Origin: Silanimonas sp. | Lineage (GTDB): Bacteria; Pseudomonadota; Gammaproteobacteria; Xanthomonadales; Xanthomonadaceae | Reading direction: 5' to 3' | Assembly (NCBI GenBank): GCA_018334015.1 | Contig: JAGXTI010000029.1 | Location: forward strand, 61,361-125,360 | DNA: 64,000 bases | In this document: positions 9,082 to 64,000 of the stretch, one piece after another | Position numbering within the stretch: position 1 is the first letter of the stretch | Layout of the letters: the number at the start of each line of letters is the position of its first letter | Position numbers and translations under genes: made by a program | The notes under the pieces: generated by a model | Database searches by the model: none | The model's input: the letters and a program-made list of their open reading frames with translations, nothing else | Told to the model about the DNA's origin: nothing

Positions 9082-11232
9082 TCAGCGCACCGGCATACCG
9101 GGCAGGGCGCCTGGGTCGGCGTCGAGCAGGGCCAGCGCACCGCCATCGAAGCCGGCCGAGAGGATCATCCCCTCGCTCATCCCGAAGCGCATCTTGCGCG
9201 GGGCGAGGTTGGCGATGAACACGACGCTCCGGCCCACGAGCTTCTCCGGCTCGCCGTAGCTGGCGCGGATGCCCGAGAAGATCTGCCGCTCGCCGAGCTC
9301 GCCGGCGTCGAGTTTGAAGCGCAGCAGCTTGTCGGAGCCTTCGACGAACCCACATTCCAGCACCCGGCCGATGCGCAGGTCGAGCTTGGCGAAGTCCTCG
9401 ATGCCGATGAAGGCAGGGGCGTCGTCGGCAGCGGGCTTGGCCGGTTCGGCTTTTGGCGCGGCGGGCTTCGCGGCCTTCTCGACGCTGGTGGGCGCCGCCG
9501 TTGCAGCAGCGGCTTTCGCGGCTTCGGCAGCAGCGGCGAGGGAATCCTTGGAGGCGTCGATCATGGTGTCGATCTGCTTGGGTTCGATGCGGGTGAGCAG
9601 GGGCTCGTAGGGGCGGATGGCGCGGCCGAGCAGGGGCGTTGCGGCGTCGGCCCATCCTTCGATCGGTGCGTCGAGGAAGGCCTCGGCGCGCGCGCACAGC
9701 GCCGGCAGGATGGGCTTCAGGCCGATCGCCAGCAGTCGGAACAGGTTGAGGCCCTGCGTGCAGACGCGCTGCAGATCGGCATCACCCCCCTCGGCCTTGG
9801 CGATCACCCAGGGCTTCTTCTCGTCGACGTAGCGGTTGGCTTCGTCGGCCAGCGCCATCACCCCGCGCACGGCGGCGGCGGCATCGTCGTCGAGGTAGTG
9901 GCCGCGCACTGCATCGAGCGCCTCGACGAAACGCGCGACCATCGCGGGGTCATCGAGCTCGGCGGCGAGCTGGCCGCCGAAGCGCTTCTCGATGAAGCCG
10001 GCGCAGCGGCTGGCGATGTTGACGAACTTGCCGACGAGGTCGGCGTTCACTCGCGCCATGAAGTCGGCCAGGTTGAGGTCGAGGTCGGTGACGCCGCCCG
10101 AGCTCTTCAGCGCGTAGTAGTAGCGCAGCGCTTCCGGCGGCAGGCCGGCCTCGAGGTAGGTGCGGGCCTGGATGAAGGTGCCGCGCGACTTGCTCATCTT
10201 CTCGCCGTTCACCGTCAGGTAGCCGTTGACGTGCAGACGCGTCGGCGTGCGGTGGCCGGAGCCGTGCAGCACCGCCGGCCAGAACAGGCCGTGGAAGTTG
10301 ACGATGTCCTTGCCGAGGAAGTGGTGCAGCTCGGTTTCGCCCTTCGCGTTGCGCGCAGCGTCGAGGAAGGCGCCGAAGTCCAAGCCTTTCGCCTCGCACA
10401 GGGCCTTGAAGCTCGACAGGTAGCCGATGGGCGCATCCAGCCAGACGTAGAAGTACTTGCCCGGCGCGCCGGGGATCTCGAAGCCGAAGTAGGGCGCGTC
10501 GCGTGAGATGTCCCAGGCGCGCAGGCCGGACTCGACCCACTCCATCAGCTTGGCGCGCACGCCCGGGTGGGCCACGTCGCCGGCCAGCCACTCGCGCAGG
10601 AAGGCCTCGAAGTGGCCCAGCTCGAAGAAATGGTGCTCGCTCATCCGCAGCTCCGGCGTGGCACCGGAGACCACCGAGCGCGGGTTCTTCAGCTCGGTGG
10701 GCGCGTAGGTGGCGCCGCAGGCCTCGCAGTTGTCGCCGTACTGCTCGGTCGCGCCGCAGTTCGGGCACTCGCCCTTGATGTAGCGGTCGGGCAGGAACAT
10801 GTTCCGCACCGGATCGAACAGTTGCTGGATCGGCCGGATGCCGATGTGGCCGTTCGCCTTCAGCGAGGCATGGATCGCTTCGGTCAGCGCGCGATTGCCG
10901 ATGCTGTGGGTCGAGTCGTAGTGGTCGAAGCCGACGCCGAAGTCGGCAAAGTCGCGCTCGTGGCGGGCCTGCACGCCGGCGATGAAAGCCTCGGGCGTGG
11001 TACCGGCCTTCTCGGCCGCCAGCATGATCGGCGTGCCGTGGGTGTCGTCGGCGCAGACGAAGTGCGTGGCACCGCCGGCCATCCGCCGCGTGCGCACCCA
11101 GATGTCGGCTTGGATGTAGCCGACCAGGTGCCCGAGGTGGATCTCGCCGTTGGCGTAGGGCAGGGCGGTGGTGACAAGGGCGGGCGCTGGGCGCGCCGCG
11201 GGCGGAAGGGAAGCGGGCGTGGTCATCGGCAT
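9082..11232 (-). CDS. metG: Methionyl-tRNA synthetase
   Basis: 716 residues. Class I synthetase charging tRNA-Met. It has the HLGH signature at about 32-35, a zinc-knuckle region ([19 protein letters not shown]), KMSKS at about 345-349, and a C-terminal EMAP-like tRNA-binding domain ([17 protein letters not shown] ... SEGMILSAG) joined by an Ala/Lys/Pro-rich linker. Size matches the long gammaproteobacterial form. Two ATGs lie six bases apart (11232, 11226); neither has a clear ribosome site, and the upstream one is given. Confidence 0.96.
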
Positions 11233-11310
11233 CGCGGCAAAGGCAGGCCGTGATTATCGCAGATGGCGACGGTTCACCGGTTGCGGCCGCCGACTGGATC
11301 GTCGGAAAGA

Positions 11311-11337
11311 CGAAGCCCGGCACGGGGCCGGGCTTCG
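11311..11337 (-). terminator. Rho-independent terminator downstream of the TonB receptor gene
   Basis: Perfect 11-bp inverted repeat CGAAGCCCGGC/GCCGGGCTTCG around a 5-base loop. On the minus strand it is followed by GTCTTTCC, a short T-rich tail. It lies 25 bp after the receptor stop codon and before metG. Confidence 0.75.
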
Positions 11338-11361
11338 CTTGCAGTGCTGCTGCTTCTGGCG

Positions 11362-14300
11362 TCAGAAGCGGTAGATCGCCGAGAGGGTATAGCGCCGACC
11401 CAGCGTGTCGTAGGTGCCGAGGCCCACGAGCGGGAACGGCGGCTCCTCGTCGGTGAGGTTGGTCGCGGCCAGCCGCAGGCGCAGGTCGCCGTCGAGGAAA
11501 TTGACGAAGGCACTGGCGTCGTAGGTGGTCGCACTCTCGAAGGTCATGATGTCCTGCAACTCCGGCGAGATGTCGTTGCCGACGCGCACCGGGCCGGTGT
11601 AGTTGCCCTGCACGCTCACGCCCCAGCGCGGCTGCTCATAGGCGATGCCGAACTGGTACTCACGCAGCGGGGTGCCAATGAGACCGAGGCCGTTGACGTT
11701 GACCACGTTGTTGATCGAGCTGTCCACGCCGACGCGGCGGAAGGCGGTGCCGGTGAAGCTCAGCACGCCACCGAAATCGAGGCCCCAGTCGGCAAGATCC
11801 TGCGCGTAGCTGATCTCGCCGGAAAAGCCGCGGAAGTTGAGATAACCACCGTTGACGAAACCGGTCTGCACGAACTGGATCTGGCCAGCCGCATCACGCT
11901 GGATGCGTGAGCAGAAGGCGTTGCCCTGCAGCGGGTTGTTGCGGTCGAACTCGGTGTTGTCGAAACACCCAGTGGCGATGTCGGCCGTGCCCAGATTGCC
12001 GATGACGTCGCTGATCTCGATCTTGTAGTAGTCCGCCGAAATGCGCAGTCCCTCCACCCAGCGCGGCTGCAGCACGATGCCGTAGGTCCAGCCATCGGAG
12101 GACTCGTTCAGCAGGTTCCTGTCACCCTGGCTGGTGATCGGGATCGAGGCCGTGACCGCGTTGGAGAGGAAGGTGGAACCATCGATGCCCAGGGCCTGGA
12201 ACATGGCGTTGCAGTTGGCCTGGCGGACGGCCGGGCGGGTGCCGCCGGCCTGGTTCGGCGCATGGCAGGGGTCGGGCACGAACGCGAAGGCACTCGACAC
12301 CGGCGTGAACAGTTCGACCAGCGACGGTGCCCGCAGCGAGCGGGTGAAGTTGCCGCGCAGCTCGATGTCCTCGATCGGACGCCACTGCAGGCCGCCGGTG
12401 AAGGCATTGAAGCCGCCGTTCACGGTGTTGTCGACACGGCGGAACCGGCCGGTGAAGTCGAGGCGGTTCAGGCCGGGGATGTTGGCATTGCTGTCGACGA
12501 AGGGCGCGATGAACTCGACGAAGGCTTCCTTGGTGGAGAACGATCCGGTCAGCGGCTGGATGGCCACGCTGCGGCCACGGCCGGCGCGCTGGAAGGCGTC
12601 GGGCTGGAAGTCGGCGCGCTCGATGCGGCGTTCGAAGCCGCCGTTGAAGCTGAACGGGCCGCCCCACATCTCGAACAGCGAGCCGCCGATGTTGGCGTTG
12701 AACACTTCCTGCTCCTGAGCGGCGCGGGCGTGGTTGTTGACGGTGACGTAGTCACGCGCCTCGCGGCTGGGCCGACCCTCGCCGAACAGGTTGAGCGGCA
12801 CGCAGTTGGGGTCGGCCACCGGGCTGAAACCACCCGGCACGATCAGGCCCGGCACCGGCGTGGGCGAGCAGACCACCGCGCCGGCGGCATTGCGGACCAC
12901 ATGCAGGGCATTGGTGAAACGCTGGTTGTCGATCTGACGGCTGAAGAAATCCGCCGAACTGCGGCCCCAGGTGTAGCTGGCTTCCCAGCGGAAATCGCGG
13001 TCACCGACTGCGAGGATGCCGTCAGCACCGAACACCGCGCGACGGATCAGCACCTCGCTGGAGGCATTGTTCTCGACCAGATCGCGGTGCGCGCGGCTGA
13101 TGCGGAAGCTGGTGATGCCATTCGCCGCCAGCACGGCCTGATTCTGCGGCGAAAGCAGAGCGTAATCGTTGCGGAAGGTGATCGGACCCGACAAGCCGCC
13201 GAACAGGTTGGCGTTCCAGTTGTACTGGTCGACCAGTTCCAGCGATTCGGCGTGGTACTCGAAGCCTTCGAAGAACAGGCGGGTGTTGTCGCCGAGATTG
13301 ATCGAGCCCATCAGGTTGATGGTCTGGCGGTCGAGGTCGCTGAGGAGCTGGATGCTCTCCTGCAGGTTCATGCCGTCGCCGCCGTGCGCGCTGCTCGTAC
13401 CGAAGTTGATGCCGGGGTTGAAGGGGATGATGTCGCCGTTCGGGGCGAACTGCAGGTAGGTGGTGCTGGCCGCGCCGAAGCCGCGCAGGCGGCCATCCGG
13501 GAAGTTGAAACCACCGGTGGCCGGCAGCAGCAGGCCGCCGAAGGTCAGCGAGAACAGGCGGCGGTCGCGGATGAGGACGTTGTTGGCGATGCCGTCCGCC
13601 GCGGCCGAGGGCGTGCAGGTCTGGAACGGTGTGTTCGGGTTGACCCGCCCGTCGTTGCCCGGGGTGCGGCCGGGCTGGGTGGTGGTGATGCTGGATCCGC
13701 CGGTGGTGCAGGGGTTTGGCGCGAAGAGGTAGGCATTACGGATGCGCTCACGTTCGGTGCCCAGCACGCCGTCGGACTGGTCGCGGGTGGCGGCAATGGT
13801 GATGTTGCCCAGGTTGTCACCGAAGTTCTGGCCGAAGATCGCCGAGAGGCTGTGGCGCTCGTTGTCGCCGCGGTCGGTGATGCCGTAGGTGCCGGACACT
13901 TCGGCACCTTCGAAGTCACGCCGGGTGATGACGTTGACCACACCGGCGATCGCATCCGAACCGTAGGTCGGCGCGCCGCCGATGGCGATGTTCTCGATCC
14001 GCTCGACCAGTTGCGCCGGGATGGCGTTGAGGTCGACCTGCACGCCGGGGGCGGCCGGACCGAAGATGGTGCCGGGGTTGGAATTGACCACGCGGCGGCC
14101 GTTGATCAGCGCCAGCGTGCGGTTGGTGCCGAGGCCGAAGCGGTTGACGAAGTTGACGCCGACGCCGAAGGTGCTCTGGCCGCCTTCCGGGGTGACGGCG
14201 GTGCCGAAGCCGGGCAGCTCGTTCAGCGCATCGGCGATGTTGGTGATGCCGCGCGCCTCGATCCGCTCGCGGGTGACCACGGTGGCCGGCTCGAGGGTGT

Positions 14301-14496
14301 CGAAACCCGCACGGAAAATGCGCGAGCCGGTGACCTGAACGGCATCCAGCACCTGGGCTTCTTCTTCGGGCTGATCGGTGTCCTCATCAGCTTCGCGTTC
14401 TTGGGCGACGGCCGGAACGGCGAGCATGAGGGCCAAGGCGGTGGCGGTGGCCTGCGCCAATGTGCTGTAGGCGGGCCGTGGGCGGTTGTTTCGCAT
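11362..14496 (-). CDS. TonB-dependent outer-membrane receptor
   Basis: 1044 residues. A signal peptide (ATALALMLAVPAVAQ) precedes an acidic stretch and the plug-type sequence VLDAVQVTGSRI, RERIEARGITNIADALNELPGFG and RNLALINGRR-like motifs (TLALINGRRVV). The large beta-barrel ends in the outer-membrane signature YTLSAIYRF. The extended loops and length fit the large receptors abundant in Xanthomonadales; the substrate cannot be told from sequence. The start at 14496 has a strong ribosome site (GGGGAGA, 7 bases upstream). Transcribed alone, with its own promoter and terminator. Confidence 0.93.
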   Translation of the reverse strand: MRNNRPRPAYSTLAQATATALALMLAVPAVAQEREADEDTDQPEEEAQVLDAVQVTGSRIFRAGFDTLEPATVVTRERIEARGITNIADALNELPGFGTAVTPEGGQSTFGVGVNFVNRFGLGTNRTLALINGRRVVNSNPGTIFGPAAPGVQVDLNAIPAQLVERIENIAIGGAPTYGSDAIAGVVNVITRRDFEGAEVSGTYGITDRGDNERHSLSAIFGQNFGDNLGNITIAATRDQSDGVLGTERERIRNAYLFAPNPCTTGGSSITTTQPGRTPGNDGRVNPNTPFQTCTPSAAADGIANNVLIRDRRLFSLTFGGLLLPATGGFNFPDGRLRGFGAASTTYLQFAPNGDIIPFNPGINFGTSSAHGGDGMNLQESIQLLSDLDRQTINLMGSINLGDNTRLFFEGFEYHAESLELVDQYNWNANLFGGLSGPITFRNDYALLSPQNQAVLAANGITSFRISRAHRDLVENNASSEVLIRRAVFGADGILAVGDRDFRWEASYTWGRSSADFFSRQIDNQRFTNALHVVRNAAGAVVCSPTPVPGLIVPGGFSPVADPNCVPLNLFGEGRPSREARDYVTVNNHARAAQEQEVFNANIGGSLFEMWGGPFSFNGGFERRIERADFQPDAFQRAGRGRSVAIQPLTGSFSTKEAFVEFIAPFVDSNANIPGLNRLDFTGRFRRVDNTVNGGFNAFTGGLQWRPIEDIELRGNFTRSLRAPSLVELFTPVSSAFAFVPDPCHAPNQAGGTRPAVRQANCNAMFQALGIDGSTFLSNAVTASIPITSQGDRNLLNESSDGWTYGIVLQPRWVEGLRISADYYKIEISDVIGNLGTADIATGCFDNTEFDRNNPLQGNAFCSRIQRDAAGQIQFVQTGFVNGGYLNFRGFSGEISYAQDLADWGLDFGGVLSFTGTAFRRVGVDSSINNVVNVNGLGLIGTPLREYQFGIAYEQPRWGVSVQGNYTGPVRVGNDISPELQDIMTFESATTYDASAFVNFLDGDLRLRLAATNLTDEEPPFPLVGLGTYDTLGRRYTLSAIYRF

Positions 14497-14543
14497 GGTG
14501 GAGTCTCCCCTGAGAGAATGGGCGCCATGAGGCGGTGGTGCTC

Positions 14544-14559
14544 GGCCGAATTTTCGGCC
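14544..14559. promoter_or_regulatory. Palindrome in the leader of the TonB receptor gene
   Basis: GGCCGAA-TT-TTCGGCC is a perfect 16-bp palindrome between the proposed -10 box and the start codon of the receptor gene. It could be an operator or a leader hairpin. It does not resemble a Fur box by eye. Confidence 0.4.
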
Positions 14560-14570
14560 TTGGCCGGACC

Positions 14571-14599
14571 TTAACACGAGTGTAACGGGACTGTGTCAA
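14571..14599 (-). promoter_or_regulatory. Sigma-70-type promoter of the TonB receptor gene
   Basis: On the minus strand a perfect -35 TTGACA (14594-14599) is separated by 17 bp from TGTTAA (14571-14576), a moderate -10. The start codon is 75 bp downstream, leaving a leader that contains the palindrome and the ribosome site. Confidence 0.65.
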
Positions 14600-14643
14600 G
14601 TCCGCGTTCCATTTTTTTTCTGAATCCCAGGCACCCCGACACG

Positions 14644-15732
14644 ATGCCCATGCCCGACGAACCTCTGCTCCGCGCCGCCCTTGCCGGCCTGCACGACCCC
14701 CACACCGATGCCCCGCTGGTTGCCGAGTCGGTTCGCGGCCTCGCGGTCGATCAGGGTCGGGTCGTGGCCCACTTGCAACTGCCCTATGCCGCGGCCGGCT
14801 GGCACGAGGAACTGGCGGCTCGCGCCGAGGCCGCCTTGCGCGGCGTGCCGGGCGTGGTCTCGGCCCTCGTGGATGTCGGCCAGCGGGTCTACGCCCACCG
14901 GGTGCAGAACGAGCTGAGCCCGCTGCCGGAGGTGAAAAACCTGATCGCCGTGGCTTCCGGCAAGGGCGGCGTCGGCAAGTCGACCACGGCGGTGAACCTT
15001 GCGCTGGGGCTCGCTGCCGAGGGCGCGCGGGTCGGCCTGCTGGATGCCGACATCCATGGCCCCTCGATCCCGATGATGCTGGGGCTTTCGGGCAAGCCGG
15101 AAAGCCCGGACGGCAAGGCCATCAGCCCGAAGCTGGCGCATGGCCTGCAGGTCATGTCGATCGGCCTGTTCCTTGATGAGGACCAAGCGACCATCTGGCG
15201 CGGGCCGATGACCTCGCAGTACCTGCAGCAGCTGTTCAACACCACGCTCTGGGACGGGCTGGACTACCTGGTTGTCGACCTGCCACCCGGCACCGGCGAC
15301 GTCCAGCTCACCCTGTCGCAGCGCATGCCGGTCTCCGGTGCGGTGATCGTGACCACACCGCAGGACATCGCCCTGCTCGATGCCAAGCGAGCACTGGCCA
15401 TGTTCGGAAAAGTCGGCGTGCCGGTGCTCGGCATCGTCGAGAACATGGCCCTGCACACCTGCACGAACTGCGGTCATGTCGAGCATGTCTTTGGGCAGGG
15501 GGGCGGCCAGGCCATGGCCCTACGCTACGGCTTGCCCCTGTTGGCCTCGTTGCCGCTCGATGGTCGCATCCGCGAACAGGCCGACGCCGGGCTGCCCACC
15601 GTGCTTGCCGAGCCGGGTGGCGCCAACGCGGCGGCCTACCGCTGGATGGCCCGGCGGGTGGCGGCGCAGCTCGCGTTGCAACCGAAGAACCGCCAGATCG
15701 GCTTTCCCGGCATCACGGTCGAGAGCACCTGA
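14644..15732 (+). CDS. apbC: Iron-sulfur cluster carrier protein ApbC/Mrp
   Basis: 362 residues. A short N-terminal MIP18-like domain (about 1-90) precedes the P-loop NTPase with the deviant Walker [26 protein letters not shown], and [11 protein letters not shown]. The CxxC pair in [14 protein letters not shown] is the cluster-binding site of the dimer. The ATG at 14644 gives the standard N-terminus; upstream in-frame sequence falls in the receptor promoter region. Followed by dcd. Confidence 0.93.
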
Positions 15733-15812
15733 GCCGCTGGCCGCAAGCGGTCGCGGCCCGTCCTGGCCGGTCGCTTGCTACGCTTTCGCCCCCCGAACCC
15801 GCCCAGGCCTGC

Positions 15813-16385
15813 ATGAGCATCAAGAGCGACAAGTGGATCCGTCGGATGTCCGACGTTCCCAACGGCATGATCGAGCCCTTCGCGCCGAGCCAGGTCAAGC
15901 ACGCCGCCGACGGCAGCCGCATCGTCAGCTACGGCACCAGCAGCTACGGCTACGACGTGCGCTGCGCGCGCGAGTTCAAGATCTTCACCAACATCAACTC
16001 GACGATCGTCGATCCCAAGGCCTTCGATCCATCGAGCTTTGTCGATCTCGAATCGGACGTCTGCATCATTCCGCCCAACAGCTTTGCGCTGGCGCGAACG
16101 GTCGAGTACTTCCGCATCCCGCGCGATGTGCTGGTGGTCTGCCTCGGCAAGAGCACTTACGCGCGCTGCGGGATCATCGTCAACGTGACCCCGCTCGAGC
16201 CCGAGTGGGAGGGCCATGTCACGCTGGAGTTCAGCAACACCACCCCGCTGCCGGCCAAGATCTACGCCGGCGAGGGCGTGGCGCAGATGCTGTTCTTCCA
16301 GTCCGACGAGGTCTGTGAGACCAGCTACCGCGATCGCGGCGGCAAGTACCAGGGCCAGACCGGCGTGACCCTGCCGAAGACCTGA
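15813..16385 (+). CDS. dcd: dCTP deaminase
   Basis: 190 residues, the standard size for the trimeric enzyme making dUTP from dCTP for thymidylate synthesis. Family motifs are clear: [11 protein letters not shown] at the start, [44 protein letters not shown] with the catalytic Glu, and the C-terminal lid [12 protein letters not shown]. It stands 80 bp after apbC. Confidence 0.97.
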
Positions 16386-61195: not shown

Positions 61196-61366
61196 GGCCG
61201 CGCCCGACGACGCGCCTCTGTGCGCCACCGCACCTCGAAACTGAACCCCGCCTGGTGGTCGGTCGTGCCTCGTTGCCTATCCTTGCCGCAGAGGTCCATC
61301 CTGCGTTTGTCGCTTGAGTCGCTGCCAACTTTGGCCGTACCGCGACCTCACGCAAGGATCGACCCT

Positions 61367-62041
61367 ATGAATACGACTTCGAAGACCACCCTCACCGTGC
61401 TGGTGGCCGCCATGATGCTGGGTGGCTGTGCCACCTACACGGGGCAAACGCGGGATCCCGATGATCCCAATCGCACGCGCAACAACGCCCTGATCGGCGC
61501 CGGCATCGGTGCGGTGGCGGGCCTGCTGAGCGGCAGTGATGCCACGGAGCGTCGCCAGCGTGCGATGGTCGGTGCCGGCGTTGGCGGCTTGGCCGGTGGC
61601 GCGATCGGCGCCTACCAGGATCGTCAGGAGGCCGAACTCCGTCGTCAGACGGCAGGCACGGGCATCAACGTGAGCCGCAGCGGCGACGTGATCGTGCTCA
61701 ACCTGCCCAATGGCGTGACCTTCGACTTCAACAGCGCGGTGTTGAAGCCGCAGTTCCACCCGGCCCTGATCAAGGTGGGCAGCACCCTGTCGCAGTACAA
61801 CCAGACCATCATCGAGGTGACGGGCCACACCGATTCTGTCGGTAGCGACGCGGTCAACCAGCGCCTTTCCGAACAGCGCGCCGGATCGGTGGCCGGCTTC
61901 CTGATGGGCCAAGGGCTGATGCGCGAGCGCTTCGAGGTGGTCGGCATGGGCGAGACCCGGCCGATCGCCGACAACGCGACGGAGTTCGGGCGAGCCCAGA
62001 ACCGTCGCGTGGAAATCCGCGTTCTGCCCTTGCGCTCCTGA
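61367..62041 (+). CDS. OmpA-family lipoprotein with glycine zipper
   Basis: 224 residues. Lipoprotein signal with lipobox LGGC, a glycine-zipper membrane segment (NNALIGAGIGAVAGLLSGSDATERRQRAMVGAGVGGLAGGAIGAY), then an OmpA-like peptidoglycan-binding domain (VTFDFNSAVLKP ... VTGHTDSVGSDAVNQRLSEQRAGSVAGFL ... GMGETRPIADNATEFGRAQNRRVEI). It resembles YiaD-type proteins linking outer membrane and cell wall. A 171-bp gap separates it from the amidase gene. Confidence 0.92.
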   Translation: MNTTSKTTLTVLVAAMMLGGCATYTGQTRDPDDPNRTRNNALIGAGIGAVAGLLSGSDATERRQRAMVGAGVGGLAGGAIGAYQDRQEAELRRQTAGTGINVSRSGDVIVLNLPNGVTFDFNSAVLKPQFHPALIKVGSTLSQYNQTIIEVTGHTDSVGSDAVNQRLSEQRAGSVAGFLMGQGLMRERFEVVGMGETRPIADNATEFGRAQNRRVEIRVLPLRS

Positions 62042-62164
62042 TCGAGCGGCCGGGTCGCCAGACCCGCGCCGCCAGCACCGCGCTTGCCGTACCTGAGCTG
62101 CTCGTGGCCGTCCTCCGGCACGGGCAGCTGTTCCAGCTTCGCGAAGCCCGATTCCGCCGGGTGG

Positions 62165-62350
62165 CGGCGCTTCGTCCAGTGCTTCGATGCGGTCGAAGCC
62201 GACGGACACTTCCGCATGGATGATCGGATTGATGCAAAGCTCGCCGGAGGCGGCGCAGGCGTCCAGACGTTCCGCCGACCACGCGTACCACGCCGGATCA
62301 TCCGTCAGGACATCGAGCAGCACGTTGGCGTCGGCCAGCACGCGACTCAT
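62165..62350 (-). pseudogene. PIN-domain (VapC-type) toxin, truncated
   Basis: The first about 60 residues match VapC-like PIN toxins: VLADANVLLDVLTDDPAWYAWS with the first acidic residues and INPIIHAEVSVGFDRIEALDEA with the next Glu. After that the family's C-terminal half (with the last acidic residues) is absent; the frame runs on without stop into antisense of the OmpA-type gene. A different frame just beyond reads GFAKLEQLPVPEDGHEQLRYG with gene-like codon use, as if a deletion joined two remnants near 62160. The end given is approximate. Confidence 0.75.
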
Positions 62351-62592
62351 GCGCCGCGGGTCAGCCTCATGATCTCGTCGGTGCTCAGACGCGCCGTGGC
62401 GCGACCACGCAGCTTGGCGGCGAGACCGCGTTCTGGCCAGTGCGGTTTCGCCAGGGTTGCCTCGGCTTCACGCAGGACGACGTCGCGAACGAAAGCCGAG
62501 ACCGCCTGACCGCGCAGCGCAGCTGCACGAACGATGCGGTCCTTCTCGGTGCTGCCGAGGCGGAGTTCGAGACGGGTGGGGATGATGGGCAT
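62347..62592 (-). CDS. Ribbon-helix-helix antitoxin of a PIN-type module
   Basis: 81 residues. N-terminal ribbon-helix-helix (RLELRLGSTEKDRIVRAAALRGQAVSAFVRDVVLREA) for DNA binding and a C-terminal tail (GLAAKLRGRATARLSTDEIMRLTRG) typical of antitoxins that neutralise PIN toxins. Strong ribosome site AAGGAGG five bases before the ATG. It overlaps the broken toxin gene by four bases. Confidence 0.82.
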   Translation of the reverse strand: MPIIPTRLELRLGSTEKDRIVRAAALRGQAVSAFVRDVVLREAEATLAKPHWPERGLAAKLRGRATARLSTDEIMRLTRGA

Positions 62593-62604
62593 CGGGGCCT
62601 CCTT

Positions 62605-62628
62605 GTACAGACAACTTGCCGTACAGAC
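62605..62628. promoter_or_regulatory. Direct-repeat operator of the antitoxin gene
   Basis: GTACAGAC occurs perfectly twice, at 62605-62612 and 62621-62628 (16-bp period), touching the ribosome site of the antitoxin gene. Ribbon-helix-helix antitoxins bind such short repeats to control their own operon. Confidence 0.65.
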
Positions 62629-62704
62629 TGGCGAAGGGTGAGTCGGATCAAGCGGTGTGCAGGTGACTGAGGGCGGGGACGAGGGGGTGATCTGAGCCCC
62701 TATG

Positions 62705-62732
62705 AGTTCGCATAATGAATATTATGTCAATA
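62705..62732 (+). other. dif-like XerC/XerD recombination site
   Basis: 28 bp with dif architecture: 11-bp XerC-type arm AGTTCGCATAA, 6-bp centre TGAATA, 11-bp XerD-type arm TTATGTCAATA. From memory of the E. coli dif site it matches at 22 of 28 positions; the inner arms (CGCATAA, TTATGT) match almost completely, and the outer part of the XerD arm deviates. It lies in the gene-free gap between the antitoxin and the NERD gene. Alternative: its minus strand carries TTGACA (62725-62730), a possible -35 box. Confidence 0.7.
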
Positions 62733-62760
62733 GTTGGCAGATGCGGCTCAAGGTTCGATC

Positions 62761-63678
62761 TCAGTCCTCGGCTTGGTCCCCGTACCGTTTCGTGAGCGCC
62801 CAGGCGATTCGACGCCTTTGATCCTCGGCCATCGCTGGACCGAAGTTGACCGTCCGCATGAAAGAAGGTGCCTTCGGGTTGATCACGCGCACATCGTTGC
62901 TGGCCGTTGGAATCGAGGCGGTAAGTTCCACGTACCAGCCTGGCAGTGAAAGTACGGGTATCACCCGGACTGGATTGCCCGTCGTGCCAGTCAAGAAGTC
63001 CGCCAGCCAGCGTGCTTGGCGAGCGGCCTGCTCGAGGGGTTTGCTTTCAAGGTGCTCAGGAAAGCGTAGCGTTTTACCATCGTATCGCACGCGGGCGCTA
63101 TCCTTGCTGCTTACTGAAGATTTCCTCCGCGATTTTGATTCGACAGCGAACACCACGCCCTGCCCGACCACCACATGGTCGATGTTGAAACCGTCAGCGG
63201 GCAGATCGTGAAATACCATCAAACCATCGGGAACCAAGGTCTCAAGGCCTTGGGCAGTCGCACACTCTGCCGCCAGCCCTTCGCGACAGCGACGCATAAC
63301 TTGGAGGTGACGATTCGCCTGTGCGATTAAGATGGTACTACCAACGCCCACCGTGAGAAGGTAAAGAGCGATGATCCATACATTGATCGAAATAAACTCT
63401 GGTGATCTAAAGCTTGCCTCCAGTGTAAAAATCAATAGTGGGATGGCGGGACCCGCAAATAAAGCCGTCGCTGCCACCGACCAAAAACCATCGGTTGCAT
63501 CTTCGAGCTGCTTCCTGATCTGCGCACCGGCTTGATTTCGAAGAGCTTTGGCGTCAAACGGGGCTCGCCGCACATTGCGACGCTCACTCCATTTTAAAAG
63601 CAGTAGCCCGCCGAAGGTGAGAATCAGCGGAAGGAAAAGCATTGGCGCCAGCAGAATCAATGGGATGCTGATATTCAA
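62761..63678 (-). CDS. Membrane protein with NERD (nuclease-related) domain
   Basis: 305 residues from a TTG at 63678 (the first ATG is at 63642, and the start is uncertain). Two N-terminal hydrophobic hairpins (LILLAPMLFLPLILTFGGLLLL; INVWIIALYLLTVGVGSTILIA), then a NERD domain with HDLPADGFNIDHVVVGQGVVFAVESKSRR, where the Asp and the E-x-K pair resemble restriction-type nuclease residues. Clearly less GC-rich than its neighbours, suggesting transfer. It lies 9 bp after the helicase gene on the same strand. Confidence 0.8.
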   Translation of the reverse strand: MNISIPLILLAPMLFLPLILTFGGLLLLKWSERRNVRRAPFDAKALRNQAGAQIRKQLEDATDGFWSVAATALFAGPAIPLLIFTLEASFRSPEFISINVWIIALYLLTVGVGSTILIAQANRHLQVMRRCREGLAAECATAQGLETLVPDGLMVFHDLPADGFNIDHVVVGQGVVFAVESKSRRKSSVSSKDSARVRYDGKTLRFPEHLESKPLEQAARQARWLADFLTGTTGNPVRVIPVLSLPGWYVELTASIPTASNDVRVINPKAPSFMRTVNFGPAMAEDQRRRIAWALTKRYGDQAED

Positions 63679-63687
63679 GCGGGTGGC

Positions 63688-64000
63688 CTATGATGTGCAG
63701 GAAAGCTCTTCGATTCCAAGCTTGCAGAGGAATCGATACACGGGATTGTAGAATTCCGTCTTCCGCGTGTGATCGTCATCATCACCCGGTGGAACCACGA
63801 TCACCGTGCCTTGACGGGCGCGGGTGAGCAGCACACGGTAAGCGTTGACGAGGTAGGCGCGACGGTCGTCCTTGGGATGGTCTGAACAACCCGCCGAACC
63901 CTCGTGATTTCGCGGCTTGAAGGCCGAAATCGCGCCCATCCGGTCGGAATTCCACGTTTTGCCGCGCCGCCAGACGGGTTTCCCCGTCCAGCGGACGCAC
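63688..64000 (-). CDS. DUF2075-type DNA/RNA helicase, C-terminal end (gene runs off the window)
   Basis: About 103 residues visible. The end AYLVNAYRVLLTRARQGTVIVVPPGDDDDHTRKTEFYNPVYRFL matches the C-terminus of DUF2075 superfamily-1-like helicases, including the motif VI segment NAYRVLLTRARQG. Preceding WTGKPVWRRGKTW also fits. N-terminal motor motifs are outside the window. Immediately upstream of the NERD gene, probably one transcript. Confidence 0.8.
   Translation of the reverse strand, partial: CVRWTGKPVWRRGKTWNSDRMGAISAFKPRNHEGSAGCSDHPKDDRRAYLVNAYRVLLTRARQGTVIVVPPGDDDDHTRKTEFYNPVYRFLCKLGIEELSCTS

Follow-up and report, generated by a model that had tools for sequence, protein, structure and literature searches.

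A single chromosomal dif site in a Silanimonas genome, with filamentous prophages at dif in its relatives

The stretch analysed here (the window; 64,000 nucleotides of a Silanimonas genome, hereafter the host genome) ends on the right where contig C29 itself ends (125,360 bases). The 28-bp sequence AGTTCGCATAA-TGAATA-TTATGTCAATA occupies positions 62705–62732 of its plus strand, 1.27 kb from that end, and is intergenic, as had been reported from the sequence alone, lying between an antitoxin-like and a NERD-domain open reading frame (ORF), both on the minus strand. The features of the locus are as follows.

62347–62592, minus strand: TacA1-like antitoxin ORF
62705–62732, plus strand: dif, the chromosome dimer resolution site, assigned from match, uniqueness, conservation, position and polarity
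62705–62715, plus strand: predicted XerC-binding arm, AGTTCGCATAA, the same as the first 11 bases of Neisseria meningitidis dif as given in Table 1 of PMC2731167
62716–62721, plus strand: centre, TGAATA, with strand exchange expected at its borders; five of six bases as in E. coli
62722–62732, plus strand: predicted XerD-binding arm, TTATGTCAATA; inner TTATGT canonical, outer CAATA versus TAAAT
62761–63678, minus strand: NERD-domain ORF

Within 61277–62592, next to the antitoxin ORF, a reading frame starts, by eye, like a PIN-domain toxin and then seems to fall out of frame, which suggests a broken toxin gene. On the other side of dif (62761–64000), beyond the NERD-domain protein, the contig stops inside a Schlafen-group-3 helicase gene, of which the C-terminal end is present. 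Contig C24 carries a second helicase gene, seemingly interrupted by a transposase-like ORF (by eye); extension of C29 through its broken helicase gene was considered and dropped, as the C24 helicase is apparently a separate copy and the end of C29 and the start of C24 share no DNA match better than 17 bases. Homologues of the NERD ORF were found in 26 of 149 host-family genomes, the host genome included; when their listed places were compared with the dif positions, none was seen directly beside dif except in the host genome.

The window site has two 11-bp arms around a 6-bp centre, like known dif sites, and shares 22 of 28 positions with E. coli dif as listed in Table 1 of PMC2731167. Counted by hand, two of the six differences lie in the outer XerC arm, one in the centre and three within the outer CAATA of the XerD arm, where a departure from E. 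coli had already been noticed. Chance matches are poorer: with 100 random 64-kb sequences from a first-order Markov model, both strands scanned, the best match to E. coli dif ranged from 15 to 19 of 28, and when the local 120 bp were shuffled 20,000 times and scanned on a single strand it reached 21. Elsewhere in the window the runner-up scored 16 of 28 on the plus strand and 15 on the minus strand; a minus-strand score of 17 belongs to the same near-palindrome as the dif site. The 11-6-11 layout put forward in the sequence-only reading is confirmed, and the 22-position match stands above chance in both controls. Within the genus, the XerC arm AGTTCGCATAA is unchanged in six of eight members and one base off in the other two, and the centre is TGAATA in seven members and TGGATA in one.

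The sequence-only reading had held in reserve a plain promoter, marked by TTGACA on the minus strand. The hexamer can be found there by eye, but it spans the XerD arm and is not kept in the seven congeners, which do keep the dif core, and a consensus scan detected no promoter-like site at 62500–62900. Promoter and terminator readings of the site were both set aside after the scan found nothing; with the scan empty and TTGACA not conserved, a promoter is without support, and we regard a plain sigma-70 promoter as extremely improbable.

In the host assembly (2.25 Mb in 41 contigs, with possible gaps), the window site is the one dif match at up to three mismatches, and no second dif, let alone the better one that the sequence-only reading proposed to look for, was found at that tolerance. 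The same kind of site is present in all eight genus members and in 261 of 297 host-family genomes, a conservation across related species that befits a chromosomal dif; the remaining 36 family genomes gave no match at the tolerance used. Among the matches listed in the genus and family scans, no genome had more than one. A search of an open-licence paper library brought up no paper on Silanimonas and dif.

A chromosomal dif should lie opposite oriC. We placed dnaA in 14 genomes, nine of them single-contig relatives (other single-contig members, for example G013 and G043, fall outside this count), and in all nine the distance from dif to dnaA was 0.47–0.50 of the chromosome (0.474–0.496); the host genome, being in 41 contigs, lies outside this measurement. 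GC skew was weak in the window and in congeners, and one-sided on the host contig. As it was too weak to speak for or against a terminus at dif, we turned to the polarity of GGGNAGGG, which we take to be the E. coli KOPS octamer, the motif that guides FtsK. In S. lenta (G001), forward and reverse copies numbered 41:6 to the left of dif (100 kb to the left) and 7:48 to the right (p = 8e-15), the strongest skew in a set of 20 motifs that includes several overlapping GGGNAGGG. The motif likewise converged on dif in G007 (15:4 left, 1:13 right; strongest of 20) and G004 (9:0 left, 0:5 right; tied first of 20), and counts for G006 were 6:3, to the left of dif only. On the host contig the ratio was 25:11 (p = 0.03), readable to the left of dif only because 1.27 kb of contig lies to its right; control motifs were equally skewed there (GGGNCGGG 23:40, GGGNGAGG 29:16), so polarity in the host genome is not distinctive.

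Genes for both recombinases were identified in the host genome above the NCBIfam cut-offs, XerC on contig C31 and XerD on C25. Two more tyrosine-recombinase-like genes, on C19 and C10, fall below the XerC and XerD cut-offs; C10 also has a zot match of 20.0 bits against a cut-off of 20.3 and is not the dif contig. The uniqueness of the window site, its family-wide presence, its place opposite dnaA in relatives, the reversal of GGGNAGGG around it in three congeners and the presence of XerC and XerD genes identify it as dif and bear out the terminal location suggested from the sequence. Almost certainly, the Silanimonas chromosome has this one dif, and it lies where replication and segregation terminate. 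The window copy is an ordinary, well-supported dif of a kind already known; it marks the terminus of the host chromosome and supplies a dif for Silanimonas.

Judging from the E. coli pathway, the left arm would be bound by XerC and the right arm by XerD. Should recombination fuse sister chromosomes into a dimer, septal FtsK, steered by GGGNAGGG pointing at dif from both sides, would pair the two dif copies and trigger XerD and then XerC strand exchange at the borders of the 6-bp centre, yielding monomers. Such dimer resolution by dif is an ordinary, widespread feature.

We asked how the outer XerD arm compares across the family, using 71 distinct sites, the window site included (72 before one duplicate was removed). 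TTATGT was present in all 71, whereas information at positions 24–28 was 0.54, 0.90, 0.43, 0.14 and 0.14 bits, the last two at the level of the flanks. Since the search patterns fixed most inner positions and required A at positions 25–26, inner conservation is partly built in and that at 25–26 is, if anything, overstated; the first base of the XerC arm, a position outside the pattern, was A in 67 of 71 sites. The host family is in this respect opposite, at the outer arm ends, to the rule in the sections of PMC2731167 and PMC3025954 drawn on here, by which, of the two arms, that of XerD is conserved more strongly, in proteobacteria as in other phyla.

With outer XerD arms so loosely conserved, the deviation of the window site alone proves nothing. 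In our view, drift at the five outer positions, which are under weak constraint in the host family, is likely to be the whole cause of the difference. Poor conservation of positions 24–28 next to an invariant TTATGT points this way, as do congeners with homologous right flanks and different outer arms: the DNA immediately to the right of dif is 91% identical between G001 and G004, but the two carry different outer arms, so ordinary drift suffices. No further centre-plus-XerD core was seen in the stretches of S. lenta and G004 compared. What drift leaves unexplained is one relative, G012, in which the arm was replaced by an insertion.

In the host family, dif is also an entry point of filamentous prophages. 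That dif might be a target of Xer-exploiting elements had been suggested from the sequence, and such elements do sit at dif in relatives, in two mirror-image arrangements. A profile search detected a zot-family gene above cut-off in 19 of 149 host-family genomes; zot serves here only as a marker of filamentous phages, and an imperfect one, with matches in 4 of 14 control genomes (three of the four above cut-off, archaea among the matches). By their coordinates, 16 of the 19 have a full or half dif on the contig of the gene and no more than about 10 kb from it, and in G106, G146 and G030 the gene could not be placed. G015 and G047 have zot near dif, and no half-site was found in the stretch examined in either.

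In the left type, the element is preceded by a half-site made up of the XerC arm and the centre, and the full dif comes after it. This order was found on one stretch in 11 genomes (G004, G010, G013, G022, G050, G071, G076, G085, G093, G122 and G149, all but G004 within the set of 149) and split over contigs in G143 and G119. The Silanimonas metagenome-assembled genome G004 carries a 5.9-kb filamentous prophage at dif (9987–15911 of stretch L055). It has a zot-like gene and a replication initiation gene, and a perfect 17-bp repeat of the XerC arm and centre borders it. The elements between half-site and full dif in G071 and G122 are small (1.46 and 1.29 kb); each has an ORF that, by eye, resembles a small DNA-binding regulator, and no zot was reported in either genome. 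G119 has a second XerC-plus-centre-like match 512 bp to the right of its full site.

The right type reverses this order: a full dif, the element, and then a centre plus XerD arm that has no XerC arm at normal spacing. It occurs in G118, G043, G012 and G059. In G008 (C1 94692–141121), 46 kb separate dif from a centre-plus-XerD half-site on its right, which is possibly the far end of a large island integrated at dif. In G012, the displaced arm TTATGTTAAAT resembles the arm TTATGTTAAAG of its congener G063, and the only full dif of G012 ends in TTATGTTCTTG. The DNA to the right of the displaced half in G012 is colinear with that to the right of dif in G063 (74% over 1005 bp), the alignment opening about 96 bases beyond the corresponding point in each genome; on the left, where 2.5 kb of G063 was available, nothing but the site itself aligned. 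On the evidence of this one right-hand flank, the element supplied dif with a new outer XerD arm and took the original arm with it. A dif partly overwritten by an inserted element is here still the only full site found, so the length of XerD arm that is needed becomes directly testable. The displaced arm of G118, TTATGTAAAAG, is identical to the arm found in two of the three congeners compared (G019 and G139, not G066); no colinear flank could be demonstrated beside the displaced half in this comparison. The working arm of G043 is AT-rich, like the displaced arm.

These arrangements bear on the suggestion, made from the sequence, that the window dif is itself a hybrid left by a Xer-exploiting element. 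In this reading, a filamentous phage or another such element would have integrated on the XerD side, put its own outer XerD arm in place of the old one, and now lie beyond the contig end or have been lost. If it is still present, one would expect to the right of dif the element and then a half-site of TGAATATTATGT plus an AT-rich end. The suggestion draws on the four relatives with a full dif, a zot-family element and a displaced centre-plus-XerD half, on the DNA past the displaced half in G012 being colinear with that to the right of dif in G063, on the departure of CAATA from TAAAT in the window, and on the gene to the right of the window dif, which was not found to the right of dif in six congeners with right-hand sequence. 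Against it, the host assembly contains no centre-plus-XerD half at up to one mismatch and no second exact XerC-plus-centre half elsewhere; G001 and G004 differ in their outer arms despite shared right-hand DNA; four sites in another genus, g42, likewise have TTATGTCAAT; and dif stays intact in phage integration as described in the part of PMC3025954 cited here. Arm replacement is seen in a relative, G012, on one flank; no partner half-site was found for the window site in its own assembly, where the contig stops 1.27 kb to the right, and we think it rather unlikely that the window dif is a hybrid. A broader version, in which filamentous phages with mirror-image sites repeatedly rewrite the outer XerD arm in the host family and the CAATA of the window is one such copy, strikes us as equally doubtful; such phage-driven turnover would, together with drift, explain why the usually better-conserved XerD arm is weakly conserved at its outer end. 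For the window site itself, drift at weakly constrained positions is the likelier of the two readings.

Half-sites also occur on viral contigs. Scanning these with three patterns gave at least 351 stretches; among those listed, ten carry a zot-like gene (tblastn), and many of the other 341 may have matched the short AT-rich patterns by chance. The ten divide into four with an XerC-plus-TGAATA half, four (three distinct sequences) with a centre-plus-XerD half that lacks a normally spaced XerC arm, and two with a full site; in one of these two, zot is 100% identical to that of the G059 prophage. Viral contig L524, which has a zot-like gene, carries two centre-plus-XerD half-sites (6204 and 13780) at a distance of 7.6 kb, suggestive of two phage copies, or of a prophage end, having been joined.

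Among known systems, E. coli dif with its XerCD–FtsK machinery has in common with the window site the 11-6-11 layout, 22 of 28 bases, a place at the terminus as measured in relatives and the polarity of GGGNAGGG seen in congeners; the window site differs in its centre, TGAATA rather than TGTATA, and in its outer XerD arm. Xanthomonas campestris dif, read on the strand opposite to that printed in Table 1 of PMC2731167, is ATTTCGCATAA-TGTATA-TTATGTCAGGA and has the same type of XerC arm as the window site and, like it, a deviating outer XerD arm that begins with C; as printed in that table, the strand is the other one and the arms are labelled the other way round. The printed X. campestris 28-mer is apparently on the opposite strand to the other gamma-proteobacterial rows of the table, and on its other strand it fits the family pattern of the 71 sites.

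Among elements that exploit Xer recombination, the att sites of XacF1/Cf1c, TLCphi and GGI, as presented in the parts of PMC4076744, PMC5357621 and PMC4246890 used here, resemble the left-type half-sites of relatives in having an XerC arm and centre and lacking an XerD arm; the 15-bp core of XacF1 given in this set of papers is TTCGCATAATGTATA on the other strand. The likeness is to elements in relatives, whereas the window holds the dif target only. CTXphi attP1 has XerC and XerD sites around a 12-bp centre (the part of PMC4246890 cited), and the displaced half of G118 resembles it in having an over-long centre: a perfect 9-base XerC arm core stands 17 bp before its XerD arm, and 0.6% of random places were as good. 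G012, G043, G059 and G008 differ from attP1 in that no upstream XerC arm above chance was found, nor was one found on the viral contigs. The right-side half-sites of G118, G012, G059 and G043 resemble the 19-base att repeat of phiRSS0 from Ralstonia solanacearum, which on its other strand equals the centre and XerD arm of R. solanacearum dif; in the portion of PMC3816273 cited, phiRSS0 is not termed a mirror-image type and a change of the dif arm is not discussed. The wider pattern of elements at dif in relatives is of a known kind.
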